DNA from: Diplonema papillatum
Lineage: Eukaryota; Euglenozoa; Diplonemea; Diplonemida; Diplonemidae
Length of the DNA: 64,000 nt
Direction of reading: 5' to 3'
Assembly (NCBI GenBank): GCA_030068145.1
Contig: JAPJBO010000119.1
Coordinates: 186,001-250,000 of the forward strand
A program made the translations under genes and the position numbers. The notes beneath the pieces were generated by a model, which was not told where the DNA came from, did no database searches, and worked only from the letters and a program-made list of their open reading frames with translations. Numbering within the stretch: position 1 is the stretch's first letter; every line of letters starts with the position of its first letter. Shown in pieces: positions 11,503 through 64,000 of this stretch.

Positions 11503-11526
11503 AGACTGGGGGGGGGGGGGGTCGAA

Positions 11527-11592: not shown

Positions 11593-11656
11593 ACAAGTCC
11601 CCACGAACAAGCCAGGGCTGGAAAATGATACCCTCAAAAGGGACGTGCTTACATAC

Positions 11657-18258: not shown

Positions 18259-18469
18259 GTGCTTCCTTTATGGTTAAGTCCGTAGTTTTTTCCCCCGACG
18301 ACGGCAGTAGTTTTGGTTTGTTCTTCTTTGCTTTTGGTTGTCGACACTACTTTCAGCGTCCCTTCATGCCTTTTGGTGACGGTATTTTGAGTTTCCTTCT
18401 TCACCATGGATTTTCTGGACTTGATGGTGCCACAGAGTTGTTTTACTCTCTCTCAGAAGAAAATGGTAC

Positions 18470-19368: not shown

Positions 19369-20080
19369 TAAGTTCACGGCTTTGAGTGGGTAACGTCTGA
19401 ATCGAAGTATAGCCCACTTGTCACTTTCACCAGTCGGCTTTGAGTTTCCGACACGCTGCTTTGGGCCCTGTGACTCCTCTCCGAAGGGTGGGTGGGGTGG
19501 GGACCCTTCGGGGGGACAGATAGAGCGTGGGAGGCTGTCAGCTTCTCCATCCGGCACTCGGCGCAAGACTTCTGTTTTCATCTTGCGGTGTTACCTGCAC
19601 GGGGTTTTTGGCCCCGTGCAACAGCTGAGTGTCTTTCACAGGCGGCACATCTCACCCGAGGATGTGGCAAGCTCTCTCTGTGCAATGCGCTTGGCCTGAC
19701 TAGCTGTTCCAAACTCCTGATGCAAGCACCCGTAATGGTCGGCAGTCGCCACCTGGGTCACAGTTTTGAGTCCTGTTCCGAGACTCGCTCGCACGGGGTG
19801 GTTGTGTCGCCCAGCATTCTGCAACGCTGACGACTGCTACCCCTAGAGGCTGCCACAGCTGCTGCCGCTCGTGGAGAGCATCCGGGAACGACACAGGGCA
19901 TAGCTGTCAGCCACCTTGTCAACCTTGTGGCTACTTTGTGGCTAAATGGGGCCACAATATGGCAACCTATGCAAAATTTTGTATCACGGAAAACCGCGTG
20001 TGGCTTTGACAGGTTTCTGGGCCAGAATCGACCGCTAGATTCTACTGGTTATGTCACAGAATATCTGTATCTGCATCATG

Positions 20081-22180
20081 TCATGTTTGACGTCTTCGTT
20101 TAGGGTGGTCGCTGTTGTCGCTGTCTCCACCGCTCTCAAAGTGTCCGTCTTCAATATCATCTTCCGACACAGACTCGTTGCCATCATCGACAGCTAACGT
20201 GGGCGGCAACTTGTCGTCATACTCTTGCAGTTTTTTGAGCAGGGTGGGTGTTGTGCTCGAAGGACCAACTCTACTGATGCCGCGCTTCTTTGCCAAAGCA
20301 AGAAGCGCCGCGTTCGTACTTCCTGCATCGCACCCTTGGATGCGGAGACCAAGTCCTTCTTGTTCAACTTCTGTGACGCGGTGAAGCGACGAGCGTCAGC
20401 TTGCTTCATGAGGAGCTCCTTCGGCCAGTTGGTGTCATAATCGAACCGCAGTTCCACGTTCTGGCGGTACGCCTCCCGCCGTTGCTTTCTCCTGCGAGCT
20501 TTACCGGCTATCTTCTCTTTCTTGGCGAGGTAGTCCAACTTCAAGCGCTCCAGGCGTACTTTGCGATCATGGATGCTTTCGATTGCTGACGCCACCGTAT
20601 TTTCGAGGCATCTTTGCACCCGAAGTGGCGGCGTACCGTGGACGGGGAGGTGCCGCGGTGCACAACTTGGCGCGACAGCAAATGTCGAATCCGCCGGGTA
20701 CCCTGATCCGCTATTTCTCGCTTGAGCTTTCCGACCGTGCCTTCGACCAGGGATGGGCCAAGCGTTACAGGACGCGGAACAGAGGGGTCTTCCTGAGTGC
20801 AAAACCTTTGTACTTCCAAGATGAACCCGCAGGCTGCGTGGTGCAGCAGGCCTTTCAGAAAAGCCGCGTCACTTGTGTTTCGGCCGAAAAGTGGGGTGAT
20901 CGCCCGAGACGAAGTGCCTTTGCTCCATAGTACTTTCCAATTCCGTGACGTACAACGCCGTCGGGAAGGTTGGCGTTCACTTGTGTCACTGCTTCGGGAT
21001 CGGGGTATGGTTGTCTTCCAAGACAGGGACTCAGGTGTGACCCGATATTCCTGAGGAACACCCAGCTCCCTACGTCGCACCATTCTCGCAATGTCTGCTT
21101 TCATTGCAACGATGGAAAAACTTGAAAACAGCGATTTCACGATGCCAACGTGCATATGAGGTTTGTGTGATTACCATCAGCAAACCCCCACAGAGCTCTG
21201 AAGAAAGGGTACACAACAAGAGCGAAGCCTAGACCCAGCCTGCGATCTGTAGTCTGAGCATCTTGCTTCCCTAAGCGGTGCACGTTCGTCTTTGCATATG
21301 ACTGCGATACCATCTCAGGGACCTTACGGAAGAACACGAGTAGCAACTCAAGTACCGACTTTCCCGAGTTTCCAACATGGGCACTCATGCAGAACGCAGC
21401 AGCCCATGCAGGGCCAAACCTGCCGAGTGTGGCGCACTGCCACAAGAACCCCTTGACCTCTTGAATGCTGTATTCGGCGGCAAGCCATTCTTGAAACTCT
21501 GGACCGACTGACGTAATTTGCGGCCTGGCATACAGCCTTTGTCTCCTTCTCAAAGTGAAGCGACGAGATCGCTGATGTGGCAACCCGGTGCATGCGGTGG
21601 ACAACTTCAAAGACCCGCGTGCACGCGAATCCACCTAGCGTCCCCTATCGACATACACGACACAAAAACGGTCTTGCCCAAATGAGGCTTCCTCGTCCAG
21701 TACATTCAACGCAATCAGTTCGTCTGTCAACTTCGCGAAGTACTGGATCATCTTCTGGATGACCATTGACGGCATGTGATGAACGTCGAGGTGGTGCCAC
21801 AGGATTCTCCCTTCATCGTTTTTCCATGTCGCTGTAAAGTGGCCACCGGCCCGTTGCGAAGCCGGGTCTAGTGCCCAGTATCGAACTGCAGGGCGACATT
21901 GCAGTGTTGGGTTTCCTTCAGGAACTCCATATCTCGCGAGACTAGGTTCAAGGCCCAGATCTCTTCGACGCGCCGACGAGACACCTTTGCTTACCCGCTC
22001 ATGCATGAGAATATCTACGAGGGTGCGCAACCGTGTGTCGTCTGCTTCCTGGCTGCCAGCGACATAACGTTTTTCGCACTCAACCAGAACAGTTACGTCT
22101 AGGATGCGTGGGATGCCAAAGGAAAACGAAAGTGACAATGCACTCGAGTCTGGTCGAACAACATCGTCAGCCTCCATCAC
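20081..22180 (-). pseudogene. Decayed copy of the unrecognised transposase-like protein (see 61098-63458)
   Basis: The frame is broken into at least five pieces on the minus strand, but in the same order as the intact protein at 61098. Matching blocks are GGHFTATWKNDEG with IHLTATWMQG, SFGQDRFCVVYVDRG with FEQDRFCCMFTDRG, GFLWQCATLGRFGPAWAAAF with GVLWQRATTGRFGTSWAAAW, RPVTLGPSLVEGTVGKLKR with RPVKLGPSLIEGTVGSMKR, and KQADARRFTASQKLNKKDL with QQAERRGIKSCQNWSKDKL. Overall identity by eye is about 35-40% in the good blocks, so the copies are old relatives rather than recent duplicates. An acidic C-terminal tail with SEDDIEDGHF and a KRRR end also parallels the intact copy. Frameshifts make it a pseudogene. 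Confidence 0.8.
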
Positions 22181-22364
22181 TTCTCCTTTTCTCTTGGCAA
22201 ACCCCCATTTTCACATTTCTTTCGCTCCCAGTGCTCAAATGTCATTCAAAAGGCTGCATGAAAGGAAAAAACCCGTCTGAAATGCATTACCCCCTAGCCG
22301 AAACCCGGGTTCCTGGAAAAATCCCGAGCGCCGGAAAAAATAATTTTTGGACACCCCGTTCGAG

Positions 22365-22435
22365 TTTTCCGTAGTTCTTCCGTAGTTCTATCATGGTTTC
22401 ACCATATATGGATCACACCATATTTTGGAGCCTTC
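22365..22435 (-). repeat. ACTACGGAAGAACTACGGAA motif upstream of the decayed transposase-like gene
   Basis: Read on the minus strand: ATATGGTGTGATCC, then AACCATGATAGAACTACGG, AAGAACTACGGAAAACT and GGGGTGTCC. It matches 59180-59255 on the plus strand, which stands in the same position relative to the intact copy. It may be a terminal or subterminal repeat of that element. Confidence 0.55.
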
Positions 22436-27757: not shown

Positions 27758-28550
27758 AGGTGAATTTCCCTTATATCCCACCACTTCAAATTTTGTTCCC
27801 TTATATCCCAATGGGACAACAAATTTTGTTCCCTTATATCCCAATGGGATTACCTTGGGCAAGGCAATCCCATTGGGATATAAGGGAACAAAATTTGTTG
27901 GTTGGGATATAAGGGAACAAAATTTGTTGTCCCATTGGGATATGAGGGAACAAAATTTGTGGTCATGACGATTTTTGGGGGACCCCTTTAAAAAATTTTC
28001 CCGGGGGTCAAAGTGACTATTCGGGGACGTTTGGTGCCGTTGAAACAAAAAATTCCAATTCTGAGGCTGCGTTTACCTCCAAAATGAGGTTTCAATTTCT
28101 CAAATTTTACTGCCACTTCGGCCCTTGTGGTCATGCGGCCAGAGGAAGAGGAAGCAACCGTCGTAACAAGATTGGCAGCAGGACCAGCACCAGCAATTTC
28201 AATCCTGGAAGCAGTCAGCACATGTTTAGCACTGCCCTACTTCGCATCCGGTTGCGCTGCAGCTTCTTGCATGTTGCGTGTTTTACGTTACGGATAAATT
28301 GGCCGATTTTTTCCATCTGCATGAGCCCCGCGTGCTCGTGCACCCGTATCCTTTTTTACACTCTGCTCAACGACGCCTTTTCTTTTCGGGAGGGCAAAGA
28401 GGGAAGGGAGGGGTAATATTGCATCGTCCTGCGTAAAGTCATCTGCACCATGATCGACGGAATTCGCTCTCTAAGTACGGAGTCAAGTCTCGTCTGTATA
28501 CGCGATGCGGTTTACCGAAGCCATCGAGCGCCACGGCCAGGGATGGATAC
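27758..28550 (+). mobile_element. Palindromic MITE plus downstream unit, copy 1
   Basis: 27758-27965 is a large palindrome of units TTTTGTTCCCTTATATCCC(A) arranged around CCTTGGGCAAGG. It continues into a non-palindromic block (GTCATGACGA, GGGGGACCCCTTT, GGGGACGTTTGGTGCCGTTG and so on) to about 28550. The whole unit recurs at 45566-46060 with two internal deletions. Confidence 0.8.
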
Positions 28551-29244: not shown

Positions 29245-29560
29245 CCGCCAGGGCTTGGTCTGGTCAGGCAGTCCAGGCTGGTCGGACTCTGGGTCAGCCG
29301 GACTAGACTGGTCAGGCTCCAGCCTCCAGCCTGCCAAGCTTGTCGGACTGTCTGGTCTGTCCAGGCTGTCTGGTCAGTCCGGGCTGGTCGGACTGACTGG
29401 TGGTCAGGCTGTCCAGGCTGTCTGGTTTGTCCAGGCTGGTCGGACTGTCTGGTCAGTCCGGGCTGGTTGGACTGACCGGTCTGGTCAGGCTGTCCAGGCT
29501 GTCCAGGCTGTCTGGTCTGTCCAGGCTGGTCGGACTGACTGGTGGCCAGGTTCTGTGGTC
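29245..29560. repeat. GCTGGTCGGACTG / CAGGCTGTCTGGT minisatellite
   Basis: About 300 bp of variants of CTGTCCAGGCTG, GGTCAGTCCGGGCTGGTCGG and ACTGACTGGTGGTCAGG, with an apparent higher-order period of about 115 bp. It borders the MITE at 29561. Confidence 0.85.
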
Positions 29561-29735
29561 AACAAATTTTGTTCCCTTATATCCCAATGGGACAACAAAT
29601 TTTGTTCCCTTATATCCCAACCAACAAATTTTGTTCCCTTATATCCCAATGGGATTGCCTTGCCCAAGGCAATCCCATTGGGATATAAGGGAACAAAATT
29701 TCAAGTGTTGGGATATAAGGGAATTACACCTTATT
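29561..29735. mobile_element. Palindromic GGGATATAAGGGAACAAAAT MITE, copy 2
   Basis: A near-perfect palindrome around CCTTGCCCAAGG, with arms of TTTTGTTCCCTTATATCCCA units. It lacks the downstream unit present in copies 1 and 3. It lies directly outside the 3' end of exon 1 of the coiled-coil gene (in its intron 1). Confidence 0.8.
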
Positions 29736-40612: not shown

Positions 40613-42970
40613 TTATCGGATGACGTCGTCACCTGCCATTGCGTCGTCAAGGTCGAGCATTTGTGGCGCTAGCGGGATTTGGCTTTCTTGCGATTCCAAA
40701 GTCTGAGTCGGCGAGTACAAGGGCGGGCAGGAGTGCCTGTTTTCCACTTTCGAGGGCATTGGTGTGCCCGTGGTTCCCGGTCGTTTCGGAGAGCTGCTTG
40801 CCCTCGGTACCTTCTTCTTCCTTCGATGCACCCCTGAGTCGGGTGTGGTCGCCTTCGTCTTCTTCCGTTTGCGGCCGGCGATCGGGCCTTCCTTCGGGGT
40901 GCCGAGCACCCTCTTCTTCAGCGCTGGTCGTTCGCTGGTTCCTGGCGTTGGTGGCGGCCTCTTGGTCGCCCGTCCGGTCGTCGCCGTCTCCTTTTTCGTT
41001 GCCGCGAGCGGCGCTCGCGCCGCTCGCTTTCCTACTGGCGTTTCCCGCTGTACACCCACCTGGGTGGGTGAGGAGGGCCTCTTCTTCTTGTTGCGTCCGG
41101 GGGTTGACTGGACGTTCGGCTTGTTGGACTGGTGGTGGCCGCGGCTGCAACATGCCGCCGGTCGCCTCTGCGTCAGCGTAGGGAGCCTTTTGCACTCTTG
41201 GCAGGTCCCTCTGCCATGCGTGCGGCAGGCATGATGCCCGCTGCGGCAACACGCCGCCGCCGTCTTGCACTCGCCGCACTTCGTCGTGCTGTGCTCTGTG
41301 CACACCGCGATCGGCTGCCCATCGTTCGCGTGGTGATGGTGCCGGCAGCACATCTCTACCGTGGGAACGTCCCTTCGGACGAGTGCTCTGCACGCCTCAC
41401 ACTTCCCTTTGTGATGGGTCGCGCATGTGACGAGTGCCTTCTCTATACCGACACCCGGCATATGCACGGGGTCTGGGTGCAGTTGTGGTGGGGCAGGCAG
41501 GGCCCACCTCGCCGCTCTCCCGATCGTCCAGTCAGGGTACGTCGGGCACTGCGTCCCTACATCGCTTCCTTTCACTTGTTCCTCAAGTATCGTCCCCGTG
41601 TGTGCCTCGCGAAAGCGTGGCCTGGGCCGTATACCCGATATCCCCGTGATGCCCATGAACGACAGCGACGTCGTCGGGCACACCCTCTCTCCTCTCATGC
41701 AGCTTCCCAGCCCTTGCTGTGCCGCCAGCTTGTCCAACGCGCTCATCATGCAGCGCAGGACGTTTCCCCGTTCTCTCACCCCCTTCGGCGCATTCCCGTG
41801 CAGCGGCATGCTGAGGCCCGAGAAGAGTTCAAAGTCGATCGCAAGCTCCAGCATTGACGCCTGCCCGTTCTCGGTCCATTGCATGTCCGACAGCCACGCT
41901 ACCAACGCATAAAACGTCGGTAGTCCCCAGGTCTTGTTCCGCTCCCACGTCCATGCCGGGGCAATCCGCGCGAAGGGGTGGTCAAATTTCTCGGCAGGCA
42001 TCGCATTCGCTCTCGACCAGGGGGTCGTGGGGTTCCTGGCCACCCAGCCACGTGCTTCGAGCCCAGCCCGTTCCGCAAGGATTTCAGCCATCATCTCCTG
42101 GAGCCGCCTCGAGAATTGGGCATTCTCGGGTACTACCACTCCGTGTTCCAGCGTGCATCTGGGCCAGTCGGCCCGGTTGGCTGCCATCAGCTCGGCATGT
42201 GCCTCTCGTCGCCGTATGTGCGAGTACGCTCCGCAGTCCCAGAATACGTGTTTCTCGTCCTCGGTGTCGCCGCTTCCACAGTGCTTGCAGCTGGGCGCCT
42301 GCGGCTCAGCTCCGGCCTGCCTCATCCGCGACGTGTACTCAGCCGTGTTCACCCCCCCCGCCAACGCTACACGTATAAGCCTCGCGGTGTGCGCGGGACA
42401 TTCACGCATCCTCCAGAAGGTGTTCGTCCGCTCCAGGTCGGCTCTCTGTATGCCCTCAAATCCCGGCCGCCTCGCCACCAGTCGGGACCACGTCTTCGCC
42501 CTCAAGTCCGCCCTAACTTCATGTCCCCTCTTCGAAGGTGCCGAGGCTAACGGGTCATATGTTGCACCATTCCTCAGCGTGCGAGACAGGGGCCCGGGTC
42601 CCCATACGTGTCCACACTCCATGCTCCTCATCGCCAGTCCAACTGGCCCCAGGGGTAGGTCCCCCTCGGCGTATCTTCCCCGGATGCTCTGCATCAGAGG
42701 CAGCAGTCGTGGTAACCTCTCGCACGCCGCGTAAAACGCTGTCGTCACCCTATATGCTAGGCATGTACCGGGATCCGTCAGGTGGCCCTTCTCCTGAAAG
42801 TTTAGGACCATCTCCCTCGCGCGCTTCGGATTGGATCCACCCCAGATCAGTCCCATCACCGACGTCGTCAGCCGTTTCATCGCCACCTTCGATACCGGCG
42901 CGAAAGAGCAGCCTGACAGCGCCGCCGGTAGCACATTCGACTGCACAATCCGGACCCGCTATTCGTACCG
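40613..42970 (-). pseudogene. Non-LTR retrotransposon, C-terminal part (RT thumb, zinc motif, Cys/His-rich tail)
   Basis: The 777-codon open frame opens with VQSNVLPAALSGCSFAPVSK and MKRLTTSVMGLIWGGSNPKR, the thumb region of APE-clade non-LTR reverse transcriptases. At about 210-240 codons it has CKHCGSGDTEDEKHVFWDCG (C-x2-C..H..C, usual after the RT in these elements). Around codons 470-580 there are three Cys/His modules: VTCATHHKGKCEACRAL, VCTEHSTTKCGECK and CRTHGRGTCQECKRLP, each followed by a CC..HH cluster. The tail is strongly basic (GRKRKKTKATT, HRRKKKVPRAS) and ends DDAMAGDDVIR. The N-terminal half is separated from it by an insertion. No RNase H motif is recognised. Confidence 0.7.
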
Positions 42971-43912
42971 GAACGGCGCATGGCGGAGGCCTTCCGCCAG
43001 GGCAGCCGCCTTCTGTGCAGCCGGTTGCTGTTCACGCGGGTGAACCGGTTCCTCTGGGAGTGTCGAGGAGACGGAGGGGCTGTCGCGGGATTCTGCTCGA
43101 GGGTTGAGGAACCTTTTGAGCTGTAAGTTGGTGAGCGTGCCTAGGACTGGGATGTAGTGCACCTGGGCAATATAGCCAAGCATTACGAGAGGGCCTGCTT
43201 CCCCTACCGTTTGTGTGTGGAACTTGCTTTTCTCATCGATTGAAAAAAGGCGTATTTGCACCTTCCTGAGCTTTGTGAAGGCTACAAGAGAGAGGTAATC
43301 ACCCCAACTGTAGTTCTCGCGCAGCTTTTCGATGTATTGGGAAGTGTCGAGTTCGGGTAAGAAGACTTTCAAGTCGTCTCTGTGAGTATCCCAATAGTCA
43401 GCCAATTCGTTGCGGAGAGCCATCTGGTCTCCTTGTTCGTAGGTTAAGCTGAGGAACAAGCAATTCCCGTCGCCAGCTACTGTTCGTGGCTGCAGCCCTA
43501 TCTGTCTCAGTCTAGCTGTCAGTTTTAACTCACGTTTCAGTAGTCTGTCACGTGGGTCTTCTTCTCGTGGTCTGGCGGATGGGGAAATGATTGGTATGCA
43601 GCTTTCTCTCGAAAGGGAGGATACTACTTCACTTACTTTCTTTGTTCTTCTTCGACCTACTCTTTTTTCTTCTTCTATCAGTGGAAACCCTGCGTAGTAC
43701 GACACAGTGCATTTCTGAAACCATTGTTTCAAAGCTCGCTGCGACGCGCCGAGGTTGGGCAAACGTTCTTGCACACCATGGTGAAAGACTGTTTTCAGCT
43801 TTTGGATCCGATGCCCTCTATTCAGCAGCAGGTAGAGTACTAGCTGAATTTCTCTCAGCGCGTCGTGCCAGTTGTTGCAAAGGTTGAGGCAGCGGATGAG
43901 CAAGTTTTTCAA
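42959..43912 (-). pseudogene. OTU-like cysteine protease domain of the Penelope-like element
   Basis: The first 45 codons continue the RT (LVLYLLLNRGHRIQKLKTVF). Then LQPRTVAGDGNCLFLSLTYE carries the OTU D-G-N-C motif with the catalytic Cys. It is followed by MALRNELADYWDTHRDDLKV, ENYSWGDYLSLVAFTKLRKV and, near the end, AQVHYIPVL with the expected catalytic His (HY). The triad thus appears complete. The distance between the Cys and His regions (about 120 residues) fits OTU proteases. The end beyond about codon 270 (EEPVHPREQQPAAQKAAALA) may already be non-LTR sequence at the insertion joint. Confidence 0.75.
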
Positions 43913-45282
43913 AATGGCTGACCCCTGTCAGGAATTGTCGACCATTGATGAACGAACCTCACTGGCTTGAAATGCCAGTTTCTTGTTTTGTCGTTGACTG
44001 AAAGCCTGACAAAGCTAAGGTGTTCACTAGTGCTTTGCTCGAGCCGTATTCGTATCCCCAGGTATTCCACATCGCCTTCAGCTAGGGTGGTTTCTTTATA
44101 TATCATTTTGTACAGTGATGCTGGGGGTGGTTCGACTCCCCATGTAAGGAAGTCATCCATGTATCGTTTCGAGTCTCGATGTGCTTTTGCTTTCGCCTCG
44201 TCTTCCTTCATGAGCTCGTCTACATATCTGGACTCGACATCGTAGCAATACAAGTTTGCTAAATCGGGTGATGCGTTGGCTCCAAGCGGAAGTCCGAATA
44301 TCTGTCTCATGCAGACACCGCCTTGCTCTACGTAGCAGTTATCAACGCAGAGGGCGATAAGAGATTCGATATCTTGCAGTGTATAGGACTTCTCCTTTTT
44401 GGTGCCTCCAAAAAGTGTGAACTCGCTTGTTTTGGAAAATTCGAAGGCTTCTTTCACCGCATTAGAGACACCTTTTTTGAGGTCTTCTTGTGGGAGCTCG
44501 TTGAACATCGTTTTGAAATCAAACGTTCGGGGAAGTTTTCTCCGAAGGTACCTGTATCGTTGCTTGATTTCTGCGGCGACTTCATCAGCACTTTCGATGA
44601 TCCAGTATCTGGAAATCCCTTTCTCTGCTTTCGGTTTTCCTTTCGTAGGCTTCGACTGGGGAGGCGGAGGTGCGGGAGGAGGTTCGTCGTCAAAGTCAAG
44701 GCCGTTAAGTTCTTTTCCGCAGACGGGGGGGCTGCGGGAGGATACTCCTGCTATCCAGCGCATTCCTTTCTTTTCCTTGTGTAGTTTTGGGAGGCCATAA
44801 AGGTATGGTAGCTTACCTACAGGGCTGAATCCCAGCGACACGTTTCTTGCTGCTAGAGTAGTTCGCAACTCGTCGATGTCATGTACATCTGCGTAGCAGT
44901 TTGAACGAAGTTGGTTTTGCAGCATCCGATGGTAGTGTTTTTTACACACAAACCCTACGTCGTGTCTGCTTTTGTCAACTTTCGTCAGGACGAAGTGTGA
45001 CTTTAACACTTTCAGAGAGTCTAGGACTTTCTTTGGAAGGGTGTCTGGTGTGAGGTGTGGGTGTTTGGCGAACCTCGTTTTCATTTCGGATACAATTGCA
45101 TCTGTTAATTTTTCTTGTACCGAGTGGGAGCTAGCTTTGAACGTGGATGTTACGTAGGAAGAAATGTCGCTTTCCATGTTCTCGAACACTTGGTCTATAT
45201 GTGAAGGTAGTCTGTATTTGAGGCCCATGTCGAAGAGGTGCAGTAGCTCCTCGTCCATTTTAATGTCGTGGGCCGTGCACAT
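43909..45282 (-). pseudogene. Penelope-like reverse transcriptase
   Basis: The 457-codon frame shows LLHLFDMGLKYRLPS (the L..G..F..P lead-in), LPYLYGLPKLHKEKKGMRWI (Penelope-type GLPK.HK), FDFKTMFNELP (motif A region), QIFGLPLGANASPDLANLYC (motif B, G.PLG...P.LANLY), RYMDDFLTWG (motif C, YMDD) and VEYLGIRI (motif E). A 60-residue Pro/Lys-rich insert (DDEPPPAPPPPQSKPTKGKP) lies between the GLPK and motif A blocks. No GIY-YIG nuclease is seen. The frame ends GQPF-stop at 43909 and continues in another frame at 43912, where the alpha-helical end of the domain (RCLNLCNNWHDALREIQLV) reads on, so one frameshift separates RT and OTU parts. Start upstream of 45282 is uncertain. Confidence 0.7.
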
Positions 45283-45565: not shown

Positions 45566-46060
45566 AGGTGAATTTCCTTTATATCCCACCACTTCAAATT
45601 TTGTTCCCTTATATCCAAATGGGACAACAAATTTTGTTCCCTTATATCCCAATGGGATTACCTTGGGCAAGGCAATCTCATTGGGATATAAGGGAACAAA
45701 ATTTGTTGGTTGGGATATAAGGGAACAAAATTTGTTGTCCCATTGGGATATAAGGGAACAAAATTTGTGGTCATGACGAATTTTGGGGGACCCCTTTAAA
45801 AAATTTTCCCGGGAGTCAAAGTGACTATTCGGGGACGTTTGGTGCCGTTGAAACAAAACAATTCCAAATCTGAGGCTGCGTTTACCTCCAAAATGAGGTT
45901 TCAATTTCTATTCTGGAGCAGTCAGCACATGTTTAGCACTGCCCTACTTTGCATCCGGTTGCGCTCGACGGAATTCGCTCTCGAAGTACGGAGTCAAGTC
46001 TCGTCTGTATACGCGATGCGGTTTACCGAAGCCATCGAGCGCCACGGCCAGGGATGGATA
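45566..46060 (+). mobile_element. Palindromic GGGATATAAGGGAACAAAAT MITE, copy 3, with deleted downstream unit
   Basis: It matches 27758-28550 over the palindrome and over the following unit. The sequence matching 28100-28200 and 28262-28450 is missing. The deletion joints do not show GT-AG ends, so these are deletions and not a spliced copy. It lies within the block that interrupts the non-LTR element. Confidence 0.75.
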
Positions 46061-46456: not shown

Positions 46457-49127
46457 TCACCAACTGCGTCTCCTTCTCGACCTTTCCGTCCTATTCTTCG
46501 CCGTCGAGACTAGGACCCCGAGGCACTTGACGGATTTGCTAAACCGCAGCAGCGCGTCCACGCTGCGGAGTTTGAGAGTCGACTGATGCCTACGTCTCGT
46601 CGAGAACGCGACCGTCTTCTGGAGGTTTAGCTCCATCCCGGTGAGTGTGCAGAACTCGTCTACTACGTCACGTCCTCGATCCGGTGACCCGGTCGAAAGC
46701 CTTTCTGTCCTTCTTCGATCCATTCCTCTTGCCACAGAACTATGTCCGCCAGCCTGCGGCAGGCCCATAAGCGGTACACGGCGGATGTGACGGTTATCGG
46801 TCTTGTGTGCAGCGGGTCTTGACTCTCATCCTTCGGTACCATCGACACCAGCGCAGTTGTCATGCTTGCCGGCCAGTCTCCAGTTGCTTCGACCAGGTTC
46901 ATGACGTCTGCAAGTGCATTCAGCAGGGGGAGCGGCAACTCCCGCAGTTCAGCCATACGCCAGCCATCCACCCCTGACGCGCTTTTCTTCGGCTTCTTCC
47001 TCAGCAGAATTCGCAGCTCCTCCCCCGTGATTGTTCCGGCTTCCATCATATGTGGGCCGATGTGATCCCGGAACCGATCCCGAAACGGCTCGTACTCCGG
47101 CTCTGGCCCGTCCTTGTACTTACGCAGGATAGGGTCCCACGCAGTGTTCAGCACCTCGTCCATCTCGTCAACATTTGCAGTCACTCCCGCCCCCTTTCGC
47201 AACACCCCCGACGGCTCAGCGCGTCCGGCGCAGATGGTTGTCAGACATCGTCTGCTCGCATCGGCCCTCTCGTTCAGCTTGTCTCGGTATTTCGTAAACC
47301 TGGCCGCCGATCCTTCCTTTCCGAGCCTGCTCGTCTCTTCCCGCAATGCCGTGAGAAGCTGCTTCGCCTCCTCATGATCCGGGAATCCTTCTGTCCTTTG
47401 GCCATCTTTCATGCACGCCTGTGCCAGCCGCCTGCTGTTCTGCCAGCAACGGGATACCTCATGCGGAACTGCCTCCGGCCCGCGCCGTTGCGCAAGGTAG
47501 CTGCAGATGCGTTCCATCCTGTGGATGGCCTTCCGGAGCCGTAGCTGTCTGCTGTTCGCCGCCCCCGACCCGTCGCTCGCAGTGCTTGCCGTGATGCAGA
47601 CTCTTTTAGGTGACGTCTTTATCCCCCGTCCTGTACTTCTTCCCCTTTCTTCCGCAGGGATTCCGAAGGCATCCTGCAAGTACTGCTCACTGACTCGTGA
47701 CCACTCGAGCCAGGCCTCTTCCACTCGCTGTGCTGCCAGCCGTTCTGCGAAATCGGAGTTGGCCAGTCTCTGTACGGCTTCCCTGTAAGCTTCTGTGTCC
47801 GAGAGGCCCCACTTGGGTCCCCCCTCCGTAGAGATTTCCCGCGGTACTTTAAATCGCCACACGATTTGGCGCAGCGCCGCAATGTCCAGGGTCATTGTCA
47901 CGAGCCGGTGTCCCGGCACGTTCACCGCGGTGGTGACGCATTGGCGGAAAGCTCCTCCCGTCGTTATTCGGTTGAGGAGTATGCGGTCGATCCTCGTGCC
48001 CGATGTCCGGGCGCTGGTAAAGGTCGGTGGTGGTGGTGTGTCACCGGTACGCGCATGGTGCAGTTCCGCTGCGTCGGACCATCCATTCCTTAGTGCCTTC
48101 CGCAGTACAGGGGACCGGTCTTCTTCTGTGTTCAGGTCACCCATCACCATTATGGGGACGTCACCGAGGCTATCCGCCGCTGCGAAGAGGATCTTCTCCA
48201 GCATGTCCTCACGCTCCTCGCTCTCCGCCCTCCCGTTTCCGGAAGGGCAGTAGACATTGAACACGTGCACGAACGTGTTGCCGGCCCCTGTTGCTACTAC
48301 CGTATGGCTCACTCGGTCCGGGGACCGTATTGCTGCGTGCGAGAGCGCCGTCATCGTATCGTACGCCGGTATCGGTCTCAGTACTAGAGTGGAGAGCCCT
48401 CCGTTCGCGGCGTTCATCGTCGAGCGACTTCCGGAGTTCCTACAGAGTCTTCCGGGTGGTGGCAGACCCCAGTGGCAGCACCATTTCCGCAGGTATTCCT
48501 CCGCCTGCGCCCGTTTGCACGGAAGGAGTGTCACCTCCTGGCAGCAGAGAAGATCCGCTTCCACCGCGTCGGCCGCTGGGAGATACTGTAGTAGGTTGGT
48601 TACGTTTAACGTCGCGAACCTCATCTCCGCGCGGCCGCCCACCGTGCCTGTACGTCGCGCCAGGTCTGCCATTGCGCTGCCCGGGAGTAGGAGTCGGTCG
48701 TAGTGTTCCGGTACATACGTGACTACCGCCTGCTCCCCTGTGGCGCCCGCGCGAGGTGCATATCGTCGCAGGATGTGCGGTCTCCTGCTGTCCAGTACCC
48801 AGATTGTCGTCCCGTGACCGTTGCGGCTGCCGTCAGCGTCATCTCGTCCCCGTACTCGTACGGTCCCCGCATCGCCTCCACGTAGAACTCCCAGCTGCCG
48901 TACCTTTCGGACGGCGCGAAGTGAGCCTCGAACGTCGGGTCCTCCAACATCGCGTCCACAACACGCGCACGAAGCCCCCCTGCCGACCATCCCGGCAGCC
49001 CGGCCACGACCGCTGCGAACTGGCAGGCACCGTCCCCAGGAATCTCTTGCACACTAGCTCCCATCGCGTCCGCCGCTTCCTTCAACCTAGACCCCAGCGT
49101 TTCGAGCGTCTTCCCTCCGCCACGCAT
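46457..49127 (-). pseudogene. Non-LTR retrotransposon ORF2: OTU, AP endonuclease and first half of RT
   Basis: Reading leftwards: 49127-48723 starts MRGGGKTLETLGSRLKEAAD and carries an OTU N-terminal part (QEIPGDGACQFAAVVAGLPG, catalytic C). After a frameshift the 48990 frame (to 46663) gives the OTU His (VVTYVPEHYDRLL). It then shows an APE-type endonuclease with RFATLNVTNLLQ, LLCCQEVTLLP, NVYCPSGNG, IMVMGDLNTEEDRSP, SGTRIDRILLN and GHRLVTMTL, so all catalytic positions appear present. RT fingers follow (KKSASGVDGWRMAELRELPL, ALVSMVPKDES, RPITVTSAVYRLW, GQKGFRPGHRIEDV). The frame then jumps to 46768-46457, where VVDEFCTLTGMELNLQKT and KCLGVLV lie after the catalytic motif, so the palm with the YADD box has been deleted. 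Defective. Confidence 0.8.
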
Positions 49128-57259: not shown

Positions 57260-59189
57260 GAGCGGAACGCGCTCAAAGCACAGCGAAAAGTGGCGTGACT
57301 GGCTCTCGAAGGAGCGATCCCTGCTTCAGTACGGCAACGCTGGTCGAATTCGTTCAACGGCCTATGAGCAGAAGTGGATTAACAGTCAAGTGAAGATGCT
57401 GATCAACACCCAGGTGCTCTGCCGTGTGTTCCATGACATCCAGTATTGCTGTTCTTGGAACCGGGCACTGTACACGACCATGTCGCAGCTTCGGGAGCGT
57501 GACGGCTACACGGACCCGGAGTTGAAGGAGTTCACAGCAACTTACAACAACCTGACGTCATCCGACATTGTCGCTGAGACGCTCAAGATCATGTGCCAGA
57601 AAACCGAAGCATCAACGCGTCAAAAAGTCCGTCAGTCCCCGTTCTGCAGCATCATAACGGACGAAACGCAAGACGTGACTCGCCTTTCGCAGCATGCCAT
57701 CCTTGTTCGAGTTGTTAACCCCACGACGTTCGAAACCGAGGAGGTCTTCTGGAGGATTACTCCCTTGCGGGACGGCCAGTCAGCTGAGAACATCGCCAAC
57801 TTACTTCAGCGGGAAACACAAGATCTTGGACCCGACTTCTGGCACAAGGTTGTTGCACTTGCTACTGACGGATGCAACACCATGTCTGGTGGAAAAAAGG
57901 GTGTGCAACTGCGAATGAAGATAAGCAAGGCCCCATTTCTCCTCTGGGCTGGCTGTCGGGGGCATGCTTTGAACCTTGTCGCTGCTCATGTTGTCAAAGC
58001 CAACCCCACCATGGCAGAGTGCTACGAGATGGTCGCAAACACATACAACACCCTCTACCGCGGGCGAGGCGACAACACCGGCAAACTGCGCACTTTTCAC
58101 GAATGCCAAACTGCTGTGACGGCTCTCGATGCATATGGCTTCTGGCGGGAGCGTGAACTCTGTGCAGTTGGAGATACCCGTTGGTGTTCGCATGAGCGGT
58201 GTGCTCAAGCCATCACATCGTGTCTCAAGGGCGTAATTCTCTGCTTCGAGAAACTCGAAAGCGAAAAGGCCGTCGAGATGCGGCAGAAATACCGCAACAT
58301 AAGCAACCTCGTAGGGCTGTTCTTGATGGAGGAGGTAATGAACGTCATGGGAGCGTTCTCCCGCTGCCTGCAGTACCCCAAACTTTGTTTCTGCGACATA
58401 ACAACAATTGCCAGGCACTACACCAACAAGATCGCGCGGCTGGCTGATTCTCCGCAGTCATTTCCACGGTACTCCGGTTGTTGGGTTGTTATTAACGATG
58501 CTCAAAGCCAACAACAAGCCACCGCACAAACTGTTGAACACTACCATTCGGAAACTGGGGCACCGTTCCTGCGCGACCTGAAGACGGAGCTCTTGTCTCG
58601 CATGAATGAGTTCGAAACACTTGCTGCCTTCGGCATCTACGACCCTCGGAACCCCAACTACGACGACCTTGTGCTGGCAAGATCCAAACTCGATGTCTTG
58701 ACGGCGCACTATTGCGAAGGAAAGAGTTTTCAGCTCATGCAGGATGATGGAAGGGTCGTCAACACAGCCGTTTCGCCACCATACTTCTCGTCTGAAGTGA
58801 AGGCCGGGCTTGAGGAAGAGCTGTGTCACGTGCTTCCTGCCATCAAGGAAACGGTACATTCCGTCGATCTGGCTGTGTGCTCGTTCTCAGAAATCATCCG
58901 TGCGTTCCTCCGGGAAACTGCAAATCGCTTGGCGTATCCGCATACCGCACGCCTCCTCACAATACCACTCGCAATACCTCTCACAACTGCTGGTGCTGAG
59001 CGTCTTTTCTCCAAGCTTCGCCTTGTGAAGGACCGACTCAGCAGCAGGCTGAATGATACGAGCCTTCAGGGGTACATGACCGTATCCACCGAAGGAAGCA
59101 TCACCGCGGATGGCATTCCAAATGACGTTCTTTCCTCGTACGTAGAGACATTTACTTCTGGGGAAAGAAAGCTTGCATATATGGTGTGA
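57240..59189 (+). CDS. hAT-superfamily transposase (DUF4371 / dimerisation type)
   Basis: Open frame to TGA at 59189. Family landmarks are YNNLTSSDIVAETLKIMCQ, FCSIITDETQDVTRLSQHAI (catalytic D of the RNase H fold), VVALATDGCNTMSGGKKGVQ (second D) and LWAGCRGHALNLVAAHVVKA (CxxH-A-L-N-L, typical). Near the C terminus is YPHTARLLTIPLAIPLTTAG, then AERLFSKLRLVKDRLSSRLN (hAT dimerisation domain, A-E-R-x-F-S). The group also includes ZMYM- and THAP0-like domesticated proteins. The region upstream (from 57240) reads KHSEKWRDWLSKERSLLQYG and lacks an ATG before 57396, so a 5' exon or zinc-finger domain is probably missing or out of frame. The rest has no internal stop, so this copy is recent or domesticated. 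Confidence 0.85.
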   Translation, partial: STRKEHTSGTRSKHSEKWRDWLSKERSLLQYGNAGRIRSTAYEQKWINSQVKMLINTQVLCRVFHDIQYCCSWNRALYTTMSQLRERDGYTDPELKEFTATYNNLTSSDIVAETLKIMCQKTEASTRQKVRQSPFCSIITDETQDVTRLSQHAILVRVVNPTTFETEEVFWRITPLRDGQSAENIANLLQRETQDLGPDFWHKVVALATDGCNTMSGGKKGVQLRMKISKAPFLLWAGCRGHALNLVAAHVVKANPTMAECYEMVANTYNTLYRGRGDNTGKLRTFHECQTAVTALDAYGFWRERELCAVGDTRWCSHERCAQAITSCLKGVILCFEKLESEKAVEMRQKYRNISNLVGLFLMEEVMNVMGAFSRCLQYPKLCFCDITTIARHYTNKIARLADSPQSFPRYSGCWVVINDAQSQQQATAQTVEHYHSETGAPFLRDLKTELLSRMNEFETLAAFGIYDPRNPNYDDLVLARSKLDVLTAHYCEGKSFQLMQDDGRVVNTAVSPPYFSSEVKAGLEEELCHVLPAIKETVHSVDLAVCSFSEIIRAFLRETANRLAYPHTARLLTIPLAIPLTTAGAERLFSKLRLVKDRLSSRLNDTSLQGYMTVSTEGSITADGIPNDVLSSYVETFTSGERKLAYMV

Positions 59190-59260
59190 TCGGTATAACC
59201 ATGGGGTACTACGGGGGAACTACGGGGAACTGGCCTTGGGGTGTCCTTTTTTTTTTTGGT
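59180..59260 (+). repeat. GGTGTGAT..ACTACGGGGGAACTACGGGG motif upstream of the intact transposase-like gene
   Basis: TATGGTGTGATCGGTATAAC, CATGGGGTACTACGGGGGAA, CTACGGGGAACTGG, GGGGTGTCC. It matches 22365-22435 in the corresponding place before the decayed copy. The stretch GAACTACGGGGGAACTACGG GG also occurs at 63797-63820 after the gene in direct orientation. Confidence 0.55.
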
Positions 59261-59385
59261 GGTTCTTGAGGGGCATAGGTCTCATGTTTCCCTCAGACTG
59301 TGGGGGCTTTGGAGTTAGTTAAAGGGTTTGGGGCTTTTTGGGGGTGTTGGTGGACAGGGGCGCCAGGGGTCTTCAAACCGGCGCG

Positions 59386-59744
59386 TTTAAATTTAGGGAA
59401 AACGACAAAGTGGATTCTATATAACTGGATTACGACAAAGTGGATTATAATCCACTTTGTCGCCAATCCACTTTGTCGCCTAATCCACTTTGTCGCCCCG
59501 TATGACGGACCTAAGCTCACTTTTGATGGTTTCAATGAACTCAAACAGCTCAAAATAGTCACTTTCCCTGTGGGAACTTTTTGTGAAAGGGTCCCCCTAT
59601 ATAATTCATGCCGGTTGTCAGAAGCGACAAAGTGGATTATCAAAAGCGACAAAGTGGATTATTACTGGATTATAATCCACTAATAATCCACTTTGTCGTA
59701 ATCCAGTTATATAGAATCCGTTTTGTCGTTGACCCTAAATTTAA
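59386..59744. mobile_element. MITE with about 58-bp terminal inverted repeats, TTTAAATTTAGGG ends
   Basis: The left end TTTAAATTTAGGG then ACGACAAAGTGGATTCTATA is mirrored by the right end ATATAGAATCCGTTTTGTCG then CCCTAAATTTAA, with a few mismatches. The interior repeats the CGACAAAGTGGATTATAATC unit in both orientations. Sequence flanks suggest a short TTAA- or TA-type target site. It lies directly upstream of the 317-codon ORF at 59932. Confidence 0.8.
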
Positions 59745-59931
59745 CAGAGAAGCATTGCATAATAAAGCTAGACAGCTTTATGAAATGCTTCTCTGTGTTC
59801 TAACATCTGCTGCTGTAGCCTAAACGAAATGTGACCCCAATACGATGCAATCGCCTTACAGGTGACTTTTGCATCCGGAATCTCAAGCGAGCTCGAACTC
59901 TAAATAAAGCGCAAATCATCTCTCTCGTAAA

Positions 59932-60885
59932 ATGATCGTTTCCATTGAACTGGCTACAAAAGAAAGTACCCAAATAAAGGCACGAAACAAAATTCAAAAG
60001 CGTAAAATGCAATTCTGTATCGGCGTTACGTTTCACTGCTTTACGAAATATCTCCAAGTCCGCACGACGGAAGAGCGTGAGGAGAACGACAACAGCGAGA
60101 CCGAAGAAAGCGACACCATCGACCTGAAGGAAGAAGACATGAAGTACAACGCCGACTTTATGACTAACGGCTCGCTGCAAACGTTCCACGAGTCCACAAT
60201 ACGGCCGCACCTGCTGGAATGCGGAAACCAGCTTGCAGAAAAGAAAGACGCTCCTTTCCTTAGGGGGGCTACCGGTGTCGCACGTCGCTGGTTTTATAAG
60301 GAGCGCGACGACGAGACGGAAGTGCTCAACGACGCGGGACTACAAAAGGTCGTCGAAAAGAAGTTGAACCTCCATATAGTGGTCCGTTTGGAGCTGAAAA
60401 AGCACTCGGCAAAGCACGTCCGAAAGCACCTGCTAACACACGACGCGGAAGTGCACGACAACTCATACACATCGCGGGCGGACAGTAGCTCGATGATTAC
60501 GAACAAGTTGGAGGAGGCGCTGTGTGACAGGTTCGGCAAGGTGGGGCTGAAGTTCGGACCCTCTTGGGTGCTTTGTATTTGTGGCACAAAGGTCAGCAAC
60601 CCGCCGGACAGGCTTTCTGACGGGACGTCGTTTGTACGACACGGTTGTCGATGCCCGAAGTTCGCCAAGAAGCTGTCAAAGAACGCGAAAGCAGACCTAA
60701 AAGCTTTCAGAGAAAAAGAAGCTGCTAAAAATAAGAAGAAGGTGGCGGCCAGGAAGGATCTCACAAGGGGCATGTCCGAACAAGAAAAGGCCAACGCCAA
60801 AAAGATGTTTGAAATGGTTGGCTTCAAACGAAAGGCAGACGAGGAAGCAGAGGTCGAGAACCCACGCAAAGAGGCAAAAATCTAG
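59932..60885 (+). CDS. Unrecognised ORF, 317 residues, possible partner of the transposase-like gene
   Basis: ATG at 59932 to TAG at 60885. The N terminus MIVSIELATKESTQIKARNK is basic and is followed by an acidic stretch (TEEREENDNSETEESDTIDL). The centre contains LQTFHESTIRPHLLECGNQL and VVEKKLNLHIVVRLELKKHS, then EALCDRFGKVGLKFGPSWVL with CICGTKVSNPPDRLSDG, RHGCRCPKFAKKL and a Lys-rich C terminus (AAKNKKKVAARKDLTRGM, KRKADEEAEVENPRKEAKI). The CIC..GCRC cluster could bind zinc. It lies 213 bp before the 786-codon frame, same strand. No family is recognised. A TTGCAG acceptor at 61106 allows the two frames to be one spliced gene, but I see no convincing donor in this frame. Confidence 0.5.
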   Translation: MIVSIELATKESTQIKARNKIQKRKMQFCIGVTFHCFTKYLQVRTTEEREENDNSETEESDTIDLKEEDMKYNADFMTNGSLQTFHESTIRPHLLECGNQLAEKKDAPFLRGATGVARRWFYKERDDETEVLNDAGLQKVVEKKLNLHIVVRLELKKHSAKHVRKHLLTHDAEVHDNSYTSRADSSSMITNKLEEALCDRFGKVGLKFGPSWVLCICGTKVSNPPDRLSDGTSFVRHGCRCPKFAKKLSKNAKADLKAFREKEAAKNKKKVAARKDLTRGMSEQEKANAKKMFEMVGFKRKADEEAEVENPRKEAKI

Positions 60886-61097
60886 CTTTCTGGTGATAGC
60901 CTCCATCGTAAAGGCATTTCTTTTTTTGTGTGTTCCCGACGATCAATTATAGTTTTTTGTTGTCTCAATTCTCTTTTGTTCTGGATGTCCATTGGAAGCG
61001 ACGGCCTGTCTATCCGGCGGCAACTCGGGTATTCGACTAGCTGACGAAGAGAAATTAACGTTTGTAATGTCGGTGTGTTCAAAACCAATGCAGGGGT

Positions 61098-63458
61098 TTG
61101 TTGCAGGAAAAGGAACGAGAGCGAGTCAGGAAAGCCTGGAACAACGGGGAGATGAAGATTGACGTTACTTTCGTGAAGCCGTGTGGAATGCGCCATGAAG
61201 GTTTTCTCGTCGAGAATGCTGACTGGAACGCTATCGTAGGACTTGCGAAGTCGGTTGGCTACGCGCTTGCTGGGACATATGTGCGCCTCGCTACCGGCCC
61301 CCCTTCAACAGTTTGTCTGGCCGACTGTCCTGTTGTTCTCAGAGAGGACTTGTGGAAGCTCAGTTGCGGCCATTGCGTGCTTGTACCAGTCCTCGACAAG
61401 AATCGCGCTGTGGTGACGGACGGCGGAGGCCTGGCCGACGGAGAACTGCGAGGTATCGTAGACAGCCTGATGGCGGAAGATGTCAAGATCCGACGCATAC
61501 CCCGGGTACTCCTCATTATCCAGCGAGTAAAAGTGAGTCGTTTCAGGGTTGAGCGAGCATGGCAGAGCAACCTGGTTGCGCGTGATATCTCGTTTTTGTG
61601 TGCCATCGAAGACAAGGATGTCGCCTTGCAGCACGATAGCACACCTGTTAACGAGAATTGGCATGCAATCCACTTGACAGCAACTTGGATGCAAGGAACA
61701 TCACAAAGGCACCATTTCCTGAAGGCGTGCCTTTCAACCGTGCACGATGGCAGCATGGTGGAAGACGCAGTGACAGAAATCTGTTGCTACTTCTCGTCTC
61801 TCACGCAAGAACTTCGAGGGCTTGGCGTTCTCGGCCCTGATGCCTTTTTCGAGCAAGACCGCTTCTGCTGTATGTTTACGGACCGCGGAGCAGGTGTGGG
61901 GGGCCTCAAACAACCCCGGGTATACGAACCAGTGCACAGGTTGCATCGGACGATGAGCAGGGTTGTGACCGAGCTCAAGATTGGGAAGGAGATGACGTTC
62001 CTGTGTGCAGCAGCGAACGACGTGGCATCTTCACCTGCATTTGCTGTATGGCTGCGGGAACAGGGCGGCCCGGAGTTGAAAGGTGTGTTGTGGCAGAGGG
62101 CGACGACAGGGAGATTCGGAACGTCCTGGGCAGCCGCGTGGTCTCTATCATGCACCGTTGGTCAGAAGACCCTATTGGGATGGTACTTGGACTTCCTCGG
62201 CAGCTTTGATGAAACGACAGAGTATTCGAAAAAAAAGAAGAATATCGTCATGTACCTGACTCCTCGTGGTACCCAGGAGCGCTTCCGTCGAATAGGTTTA
62301 GCATTTGAGATCATTGCATATCCGGCGTTGAGGCGAATCTGGCAGTACGCTGGGGAAGAAGTACTCGACGACGACTTTACTGCCGGCTTTGCCAGCGATT
62401 TGATGGCTACCCTGGGTCTCTATTTCACAAAAATTCGAACTGGAAAGGACATTTTCGGGAATCCGCTGTGGATGGAAAAAGCGAGACGAGGTGTGACATT
62501 TCCTACGAAGGCCCCGGAAGTAAAGTTTGTGTGCCAGCGGAACTCCGTTCAGCAGTTCATTCGGCGTATGAAAGCCCACTTAGACGCGGCTGGCTCTATT
62601 GCGAGCTATTACGGAGGTCCCGGCGTGCAGATGCCAACCATTAAACCCATAGACGAGGCAACAGATTCAGCTTTCCTGTCTTCTGTTGCCCACAGGTTTG
62701 CCTGCGGCATTGTTGCAGAGCTGACCATGTACAGCAAGGCAACAGCGGATACCCCAAGACCCGTAAAGCTAGGACCGAGTCTCATAGAGGGCACCGTTGG
62801 ATCCATGAAACGTCACCTGCAACAGCAGACAAACACGCGCATCCGCGATGAATGCATCAGGGCAAAGCTATCGAGCACCAACGCTCACCTGAGCATTCAC
62901 CAGCCCTACCCAAAGACAATTCAGCAATATGCTGCGCAAAGGATAGAAACTATCCAGGCGAGGAAAGACCGATGCGGTTTGCTGAAGTTGACCCACTACA
63001 AGGCGAAGCAAGTTTCTCATGACGACAGGAAAAAGTGGCAGGCAGAACGCAATGACTTCATCAAAAGGATTCCTTGGCGATTCGATGCAGACAGTCATTG
63101 GCGAAAGGATGCGCTTGTGCAGCAAGCTGAACGGCGAGGTATCAAGTCCTGCCAAAACTGGAGCAAAGACAAGCTTGTGTCTGCATGTCAGGAAGCTGAT
63201 GAGAAGTTGCTTCTTGACGAGCTAAAACAGCACGCCCTTGCCCGAAGCATGCGATTCCGGGCTAATGTTGTTGCTGGCAAGTTGCTCCATGACCTGGAAC
63301 AGAAGGATGCAAAAACCGAAGAACCCGAGGCTTTGCCGCGTCCGAGGTCTCCCTCCCGGCAGCGAAAGAAGCAACCCCAAGAAGACGAGCCCCCCCTGAA
63401 AAAGGTGCGCTTCGAGACAGCTAATAGCGAGGATAGTGAAAGCAGCGAGGAGATGTAG
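61098..63458 (+). CDS. Unrecognised large protein, candidate novel transposase, intact copy
   Basis: Open for 786 codons to TAG at 63458. The first ATG is codon 19 (EMKIDVTFVKPCGM), and a TTGCAG acceptor at 61106 suggests a spliced start. Residue landmarks are D180 in LQHDSTPVNENWHAIHLTAT, D262 in EQDRFCCMFTDRGAGVGGL, a GVLWQRATTGRFGTSWAAAW block at 329-348, and E564 in RPVKLGPSLIEGTVGSMKR. It ends in an Arg/Pro/Ser-rich region and an acidic tail (FETANSEDSESSEEM). D180, D262 and E564 fall in blocks that are also kept in the decayed copy at 20081-22180, the spacing of an RNase H-fold DDE enzyme. The family is unknown to me, and a spectrum of DNA-handling roles is possible. Confidence is for the gene being real, not for the function. 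Confidence 0.75.
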   Translation: MLQEKERERVRKAWNNGEMKIDVTFVKPCGMRHEGFLVENADWNAIVGLAKSVGYALAGTYVRLATGPPSTVCLADCPVVLREDLWKLSCGHCVLVPVLDKNRAVVTDGGGLADGELRGIVDSLMAEDVKIRRIPRVLLIIQRVKVSRFRVERAWQSNLVARDISFLCAIEDKDVALQHDSTPVNENWHAIHLTATWMQGTSQRHHFLKACLSTVHDGSMVEDAVTEICCYFSSLTQELRGLGVLGPDAFFEQDRFCCMFTDRGAGVGGLKQPRVYEPVHRLHRTMSRVVTELKIGKEMTFLCAAANDVASSPAFAVWLREQGGPELKGVLWQRATTGRFGTSWAAAWSLSCTVGQKTLLGWYLDFLGSFDETTEYSKKKKNIVMYLTPRGTQERFRRIGLAFEIIAYPALRRIWQYAGEEVLDDDFTAGFASDLMATLGLYFTKIRTGKDIFGNPLWMEKARRGVTFPTKAPEVKFVCQRNSVQQFIRRMKAHLDAAGSIASYYGGPGVQMPTIKPIDEATDSAFLSSVAHRFACGIVAELTMYSKATADTPRPVKLGPSLIEGTVGSMKRHLQQQTNTRIRDECIRAKLSSTNAHLSIHQPYPKTIQQYAAQRIETIQARKDRCGLLKLTHYKAKQVSHDDRKKWQAERNDFIKRIPWRFDADSHWRKDALVQQAERRGIKSCQNWSKDKLVSACQEADEKLLLDELKQHALARSMRFRANVVAGKLLHDLEQKDAKTEEPEALPRPRSPSRQRKKQPQEDEPPLKKVRFETANSEDSESSEEM

Positions 63459-63459
63459 C

Positions 63460-64000
63460 GCAGAAACGTCACAGGTTTGCAGACTGGGTTATTTCATCAA
63501 GATGTTGGAACCGTTTGACCGTCGAGATCCCACAAATTTCGCTTTCCAATTTCCGGAGGACGTGTGCCGTCTTGTTTTTTGGTCGTTTTATTTTGTTTTT
63601 ACGCAGTGTCTTCTTCTTCATCCTCTTGGCTTTCCGACCTTCGTGGGCCAAATATCATCAGAATTGTCCACATTGTGTGACAGAAAGGTGCAAAGTCGCT
63701 AGGAAGTGCTCGCCAAGATCAAGAATCACAGCCCTGAAGTACTCAGCAAAAACTGAAAAAGCAAAAAAAAAAAAACGACACCCCCCCCCCTGGTTGAACT
63801 ACGGGGGAACTACGGGGAACTGGCCCACCGACCACACCAATATACGTCTCTCGAAGACCTCTAAGCTGCCCAAGAACACGCCATGACCCTGAGAAAGAGT
63901 TGTGAAAAGAGCTGCTGGATCTGATGACCAGCGGTATTGCTACACGTAAACAAAGATTCCGAAGCCATCGTCTACCTCCCTGTTTGGGTCTCTGCTGTTT
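63460..64000. other. 3' flank of the transposase-like gene; no gene seen
   Basis: Short ORFs only, a poly-A and a C-run (63761-63790), then the ACTACGGGGGAACTACGGGG motif (63797) and non-repetitive sequence to the window end. Confidence 0.4.

Follow-up and report, generated by a model that had tools for sequence, protein, structure and literature searches.

A recently active two-gene DNA transposon of Diplonema papillatum encoding a putative DDE transposase that could not be placed in a known superfamily

What does a large open frame of Diplonema papillatum encode, and does its product move DNA? The frame in question occupies positions 61098–63458 (+) of a 64,000-nucleotide stretch (contig JAPJBO010000119.1, positions 186,001 to 250,000; this whole stretch, the DNA analysed here, is referred to as the window). 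An earlier note, made from the letters of the window, had described the frame as an unrecognised protein family, present twice and carrying a putative DDE triad (D180, D262 and E564). Our analysis reveals that the frame, ORF2, is the second gene of a complete DNA transposon of 4,658 bp (59182–63839). We are nearly certain that this is a genuine class II transposon with recent activity; to the fuller reading, that of an autonomous, recently active 4.66-kb class II transposon with two genes, of which ORF2 encodes a DDE transposase, we assign a probability of about 0.8.

Ends, target sites and copies of the element

The element ends in TGGTGTGRTCGG inverted repeats. In particular, the left terminal inverted repeat, TGGTGTGATCGG, lies at 59182–59193 (+) and marks the left boundary of the 18 copies in which both ends are present, while the right terminal inverted repeat, CCGACCACACCA, lies at 63828–63839 (−), at the common right boundary of the copies; the two pair at 11 of 12 positions. 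They are bordered by target-site duplications of sequence ATATA, at 59177–59181 on the left and 63840–63844 on the right, which is single in paralogous empty sites. Inside the inverted repeats, a 28-nt subterminal repeat made of GAACTACGGGG-type units (59208–59235, +) is 100% identical to, and in the same orientation as, its counterpart near the right end (63798–63825, +). An inner motif comprising GGGGTGTC and a T-run (59238–59257, +) is inverted, being 95% complementary to 63765–63784 (−), and a cluster of palindromic CGACAAAGTGGATT units lies inside the element at 59387–59744. Two other boundary assignments were considered and rejected: the 28-nt direct repeats starting at 59208 and 63798 as a very long target-site duplication, since fetched copies extend further out, and the GGGGTGTC pair as the terminal inverted repeat, since fetched copies put the true ends further out.

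The copy set comprises 21 copies (20 fetched plus that of the window), of which 18 have both ends; L038 is without a right end, L042 and L050 are without a left end in the fetched stretch, and L047 is without a right flank. A 5-bp target-site duplication is present in 17 of the 17 copies with both flanks readable, as compared with a match in 1 of 272 mispaired-flank control pairs, and the duplicated sequences vary between copies. The duplication lies directly at the element in 14 of the 17; in L032 and L035 an additional base separates the duplication from the left end, and the duplication of L048 is readable either as 6 bp or as 5 bp plus one base. The extra left base of these three copies (ambiguous in L048) looks like a donor-flank base that travelled with the element. 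Two copies differ in length, L034 being 22–24 bp shorter and L039 about 50 bp longer, with the change located between 59272 and ORF2.

To search for empty sites, the window flanks were joined over one ATATA, giving a query of 356 nt. Among the best 40 of 77 candidates, all 40 cross the junction, and nine matches span the full 356 nt at 99% identity and at the length of the query, as expected of unoccupied paralogous sites. The element sits in a hAT gene (57390–59189, +), the frame of which terminates 8 bases into the left end of the element, so that its listed stop is inside the element and its last codons are lost. By our reading of the joined flanks, the hAT frame would continue for a few more codons, and at least 40 uninterrupted relatives of the 3′ end of this gene are present in the genome. 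Inverted ends, fixed 5-bp duplications and empty sites together bear out the assignment of ORF2 to a real DNA transposon.

Copy number was assessed in a genome of 271 Mb in 2910 contigs. The left 44 nt of the element occur 108 times (≤3 mismatches; reversed control, 0), and ORF2 is stop-free and 100% identical at 57 of 57 places (the best 57 of 1561 candidates). With P0002, a relative from metagenomes described below, as query, 97 of the best 105 of 379 places belong to the window family, at 39% identity to P0002; in a few of these the open frame is shorter. Copies with common ends, which the earlier note had named as prospective support, number about 100, and "present twice" proved an understatement on two counts: the window version alone is present at no fewer than 97 places in the genome, and there are at least three further lineages with ORF2 open through the E564 block (L051, L053 and L054).

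The 18 complete copies, which had been chosen by ORF2 protein identity and so understate the full spread of the family, have 123 variable columns over 4.66 kb, comprising 17 single-base columns and 106 gap columns. Each of the 17 single-base columns is confined to one copy, none lies within ORF2, and no synonymous change in ORF2 was seen across the 18 copies; translations are identical in 18 of 18 copies for ORF2 and in 16 of 18 for ORF1. Because complete copies differ by so few columns, the transposition burst is recent.

The two genes and their relatives

The ORF2 frame is real, with all 786 codons open. The TTG at 61098 is merely the first possible start listed; since the initial methionine of intact relatives is aligned with window codon 19, the ORF2 start is most likely the ATG at 61152, which would give a putative DDE transposase of 768 aa (61152–63458, +).

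The shattered minus-strand frame that the earlier note had counted as the second copy, at about 22180–20080, is also a genuine relative (tblastn E = 4e-30 and 2e-21). By tblastn it consists of four pieces in three frames, 30–54% identical to window ORF2, and with the pieces joined it reaches 33% identity to the window protein. It is nearer the intact lineage L051, with 86% identity over two stretches and 53% over a longer stretch that contains frame breaks, and the joined pieces and this comparison identify it as a decayed ORF2 (20080–22180, −) from a second lineage, to which the intact L051 and L056 belong. The left end of the decayed element, consisting of TGGTGTGATCC followed by two GAACTACGG units, lies at 22363–22420 (−) and is adjoined, like that of the complete element, by GGGGTGTC; an isolated remnant resembling the left end of the same group lies at 3671–3735 (+), with 86% blastn identity over 51 nt to 22421–22372. 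No ORF1 match was found beside the decayed 22-kb copy, the only ORF1 match in the window being that of the complete element itself.

Lineages other than that of the window account for 8 of the 105 places found with P0002, of which six were read (C169 and C295 were left out). Specifically, identity to the window protein is 35.5% for L051, 37.1% for L053 and 37.9% for L054, and these three are 43.5–57.5% identical to one another; L056 groups with L051 (97%), and L055 and L052 group with L054 (100% and 89%). With P0002 counted, the family as a whole forms five groups. Two lineages, 36–37% identical to that of the window, were traced end to end and have the terminal motif and the ORF1–ORF2 order in common with it. 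The C1400 element (4,886 bp; TGGTGTGATCC ends; duplication CTAAA) contains an ORF1-like frame with one stop (26% identity), followed by ORF2. The C14 element (4,395 bp; TGGTGTGRTCC ends) contains an ORF1-like gene in a 370-codon frame (25%), followed by ORF2 in an 801-codon frame; an exact 5-bp duplication was not found in its flanks (ATAAA and TAATA). In C169, an ORF1-like frame (29% identity, E 1e-12) is again located upstream of ORF2, so that ORF1 homologues of 25–29% identity precede ORF2 in C14, C1400 and C169.

In all three lineages examined end to end, the inverted repeat is merely 11–13 bp, and short direct repeats lie within the inverted ends, in the same orientation at both ends of the element: GAACTACGGnn in two lineages and ACAAACCCGGC in C14. 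The C1400 and C14 elements do not contain the exact CGACAAAGTGGATT 14-mer on either strand. In the genome, 145 occurrences were counted for the C1400 end motif and 400 for that of C14, ACAAACCCGGCACAAACCCGGAAAAACT (control, 0 for each). By hand count, the C1400 motif forms at least 15 left–right same-strand pairs, 12 of them spaced 2.1–2.7 kb, and the C14 motif forms at least 24 same-strand pairs no more than 2.1 kb apart, of which 20 are spaced 1.49–1.58 kb. We take these pairs to be shortened or non-autonomous derivatives, and the C14 lineage seems to drive a large family of short elements.

ORF1 (59932–60885, +) encodes a protein of 317 aa and, as query, returned 126 matching stretches in the genome. 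The protein has a Cys/His pattern at residues 215–241. In particular, three aligned ORF1 proteins have in common a Cys, a His and a Cys (C217, H237 and C241 in the window), and an extra Cys two residues ahead (C215 in the window) occurs in the proteins of the window and C14 but not in that of C1400. We read the pattern, which has no database match, as zinc-finger-like; the best E was 2.5 for ORF1 against PDB sequences and 0.04 against Pfam (MPM1, below its cut-off). A dynein-light-chain-like motif, considered for ORF1, found no support in Pfam or PDB sequences and was discarded.

Database searches and a putative catalytic core

The failure of the earlier note to place ORF2 stands after searches of Pfam, NCBIfam, PHROGs and PDB sequences, which gave chance-level matches. 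The window protein has zero Pfam matches at E up to 10, and six members scanned one by one gave chance-level matches, none to a transposase, the best having E of 0.11 (SAP), 0.18 and 0.19 in one member each; an earlier two-row Pfam scan gave an ISL3-type transposase zinc ribbon in one row (E 0.76, chance level). NCBIfam gave no match to ORF2. PHROGs gave none to the window protein or ORF1 and one weak match to P0002 (E 0.045, unknown function). A six-row profile matched no PDB sequence at E up to 10, and earlier PDB-sequence searches gave E of 1 or worse, apart from a ribosomal protein matched at 0.26. The neighbouring hAT gene (57390–59189) served as a positive control and was recognised by PF05699 with E = 3.7e-6.

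In a protein database of 5.8 billion sequences, the window protein alone retrieved nothing among the best 8000 candidates, while a two-row profile found P0002 alone among its best 8000 (E 3e-97). P0002, with 38% identity over 46% of the query, comes from JGI metagenomes (5 members on 4 contigs), and a profile including it retrieved, among the best 8000 candidates, P0002 and nothing further. Pattern scans of viral contigs and prokaryote genome contigs found no relative, nor did tblastn of the L053 protein against plasmids; against phages, L053 gave six weak records, which we take as chance (best E 0.2, covering 8–10% of the query among the matches listed). Among the open-licence papers listed by our searches, neither titles nor abstract openings describe an element of this kind.

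The three sequence blocks named in the earlier note are present, and the acids within them are invariant across lineages: D180 (codon 61635–61637, +) and D262 (61881–61883, +) in 8 of 8 alignment rows, and E564 (62787–62789, +) in 7 of the 7 rows that reach it. The homology of P0002 stops at window residue 419, and its unrelated tail gives S at 564. The eight rows fall into five groups and are therefore not independent. Eight other acids are equally invariant (the eleven being D122, E127, E152, D163, D180, D254, D262, E277, E541, E564 and D701), so conservation alone does not single out the proposed triad, and E541 may be an alternative third acid. A crude estimate of strand propensity, taken over the six residues before each acid on a Chou–Fasman scale, places D262 at the 99.9th percentile, D163 at the 90.5th and D180 at the 85th, D163 thus standing above D180.

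The order of motifs fits an RNase H-type core, and it is on this order that the RNase H reading of ORF2 is based: a strand-like segment leading to D180, more strand-like segments, a strong strand-like segment leading to D262, a long insertion, and E564, with 302 residues between D262 and E564 and K/R at +7 and +8 after E564. A helix-turn-helix-like stretch (IRRIP...VE..W...LV.RD) precedes D180, and the tail of ORF2 resembles a SAP motif, both being readings rather than matches. Downstream of D262 is an invariant ExxHRxHR, its ExxH located 15 residues after D262 in 8 of 8 rows, as well as an invariant W332, 70 residues past D262. H(2)H is present between D262 and E564 in all rows; CxxC, HxxxH and HxxxxH are present in 0 of 8 rows in that interval, which P0002 covers in part. 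No conserved [CD]xxH was found, stray words occurring in three rows at no conserved place.

Relation to known superfamilies and proposed mechanism

ORF2 could be a highly diverged member of a known superfamily, having an RNase H domain with a large insertion and belonging most plausibly to the hAT/MULE/P/Kolobok/Dada group. We regard this as possible but rather unlikely. In the hAT transposase Hermes, the corresponding residues are D180, D248, R318, W319 and E572 (PMC6027215, in excerpt), and the spacing of D, D, W and E resembles that of D180, D262, W332 and E564 here, with 71 residues from D248 to W319 and 70 from D262 to W332. This parallel may be a lead to a hAT-like way of working, rather than a membership test. 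The group has C/DxxH between the second D and E (PMC10045372, in excerpt), where ORF2 has its invariant ExxH after D262, and families with 5-bp duplications have been named within hAT as hAT5 (PMC12730594, in excerpt); hAT elements, whose duplications are usually 8 bp, resemble the present one also as DNA transposons with subterminal repeats. Against such membership, the six members gave only chance-level Pfam matches, while the hAT protein of the window was recognised; hhalign of ORF2 against that single hAT protein gave a probability of 0.3%; the Pfam scan of family members found no hAT C-terminal dimerisation domain (PF05699) in ORF2; the motif after the second D has E in place of C or D, that is, ExxH instead of the CxxH of hAT; and the element has TG..CA termini and two genes.

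Transib and ProtoRAG likewise make 5-bp duplications, ProtoRAG has two genes, and Transib termini are 5′-CAC. CMCT and Transib transposases have C(2)C and H(3–4)H between the second D and E (PMC12730594, in excerpt). The element thus resembles Transib/RAG/CMCT in its 5-bp duplications, its long insertion between the second D and E and, as in ProtoRAG, its two genes, but ORF2 is without C(2)C or H(3–4)H and without a Pfam or PDB sequence match, and the termini are TGG (TGGTGTG here), not CAC, in 3 of 3 lineages traced end to end. MuDR/MULE, En/Spm and Harbinger encode a transposase together with a second, DNA-binding-type protein, a two-gene layout like that of the element, from which they differ in duplication length and termini; ORF2 has neither the C/DxxH signature nor a profile match to MuDR/MULE. 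Integrase-like enzymes (Ginger, IS3EU, IS481EU, LTR integrases) are similar in TG..CA ends and, in some, a duplication of about 5 bp, but an integrase-type second D and E are about 35 residues apart, as compared with 302 in ORF2, which has no Pfam rve match. KDZ transposases (Kyakuja, Dileera, Zisupton) are similar in being large, unusual eukaryotic enzymes, but Zisupton, a Dileera family and Kyakuja have 7–8-bp duplications (PMC12730594, in excerpt), as compared with 5 bp here.

It is improbable that ORF2 works by non-DDE chemistry, as a recombinase or nuclease of the tyrosine-recombinase, HUH or homing-type kind: its lack of a match to any known domain leaves room for other chemistry by sequence, but fixed-length duplications and short inverted ends are the expected product of a DDE enzyme, and cryptons and helitrons are not known to make fixed-length target-site duplications. 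It is more improbable still that another enzyme, such as that of the neighbouring hAT gene, whose frame ends just inside the left end, moves the element while ORF1 and ORF2 ride along, since the element is inserted into this hAT gene, of which uninterrupted relatives exist, ORF1 and ORF2 are kept together and in order in the window, C14, C1400 and C169, and the duplications are 5 bp instead of the 8 bp usual for hAT.

For the preferred reading, an autonomous element moved by its own DDE transposase, we infer the DDE chemistry, the domain names, the binding partners and cut-and-paste as opposed to copy-out movement. ORF1, with its zinc-finger-like Cys/His pattern, would be a partner protein that probably binds the ends; the short TGGTGTG ends, together with the subterminal repeats, would be recognised by the proteins; and the element would be cut out and joined to target DNA with a 5-bp stagger between the joining points, which would give rise to the 5-bp duplications. 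The one extra left-end base in 2–3 of 17 insertions suggests that cleavage is hAT-like, one base beyond the end.

The element belongs to a superfamily that we could not place and that may be new. The chances are about even that the element represents a new eukaryotic cut-and-paste superfamily, characterised by a Cys/His finger-like protein and an unplaced DDE enzyme, TGGTGTG..CACACCA ends, 5-bp duplications, same-direction subterminal repeats, hAT-like cleavage one base outside the end, a recent burst, and sister lineages that seemingly drive many short non-autonomous derivatives; the odds are no better because remote kinship to the hAT/MULE group is possible and because Repbase was not among the databases compared. 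New DDE superfamilies are rare, Repbase having 23 superfamilies of eukaryotic DNA transposons, 21 of them DDD/E (PMC10045372, in excerpt). The element offers about 100 near-identical copies with defined ends, together with empty sites and related lineages, so that both placement and activity are directly testable, and the spacing parallel with Hermes, if real, could illuminate the divergence of hAT-like and other insertion-bearing transposases.

The window contains several further features. Two abutting frames lie at 42959–45282 (−), one encoding an OTU-like protease (PF02338, E 3e-10) and the other, which has no Pfam match, containing what we take to be reverse-transcriptase-like motifs. A frame at 46663–48990 (−) matches an endonuclease domain (PF03372, E 2e-9) of the sort seen in non-LTR retrotransposons, and pieces of IP3/ryanodine-receptor-type genes lie at 11455–13623 and 18453–19220 (−) (PF01365 and PF02815; PF08709); these, along with F-box-like genes, fit a eukaryotic genome. 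Short tandem arrays of a 29–33-bp unit, CAAATTTTGTTCCCTTATATCCCAATGGGA or its complement, are located at 27766–27964, 29560–29654 and 45574–45772, the unit being the same or very similar in each.
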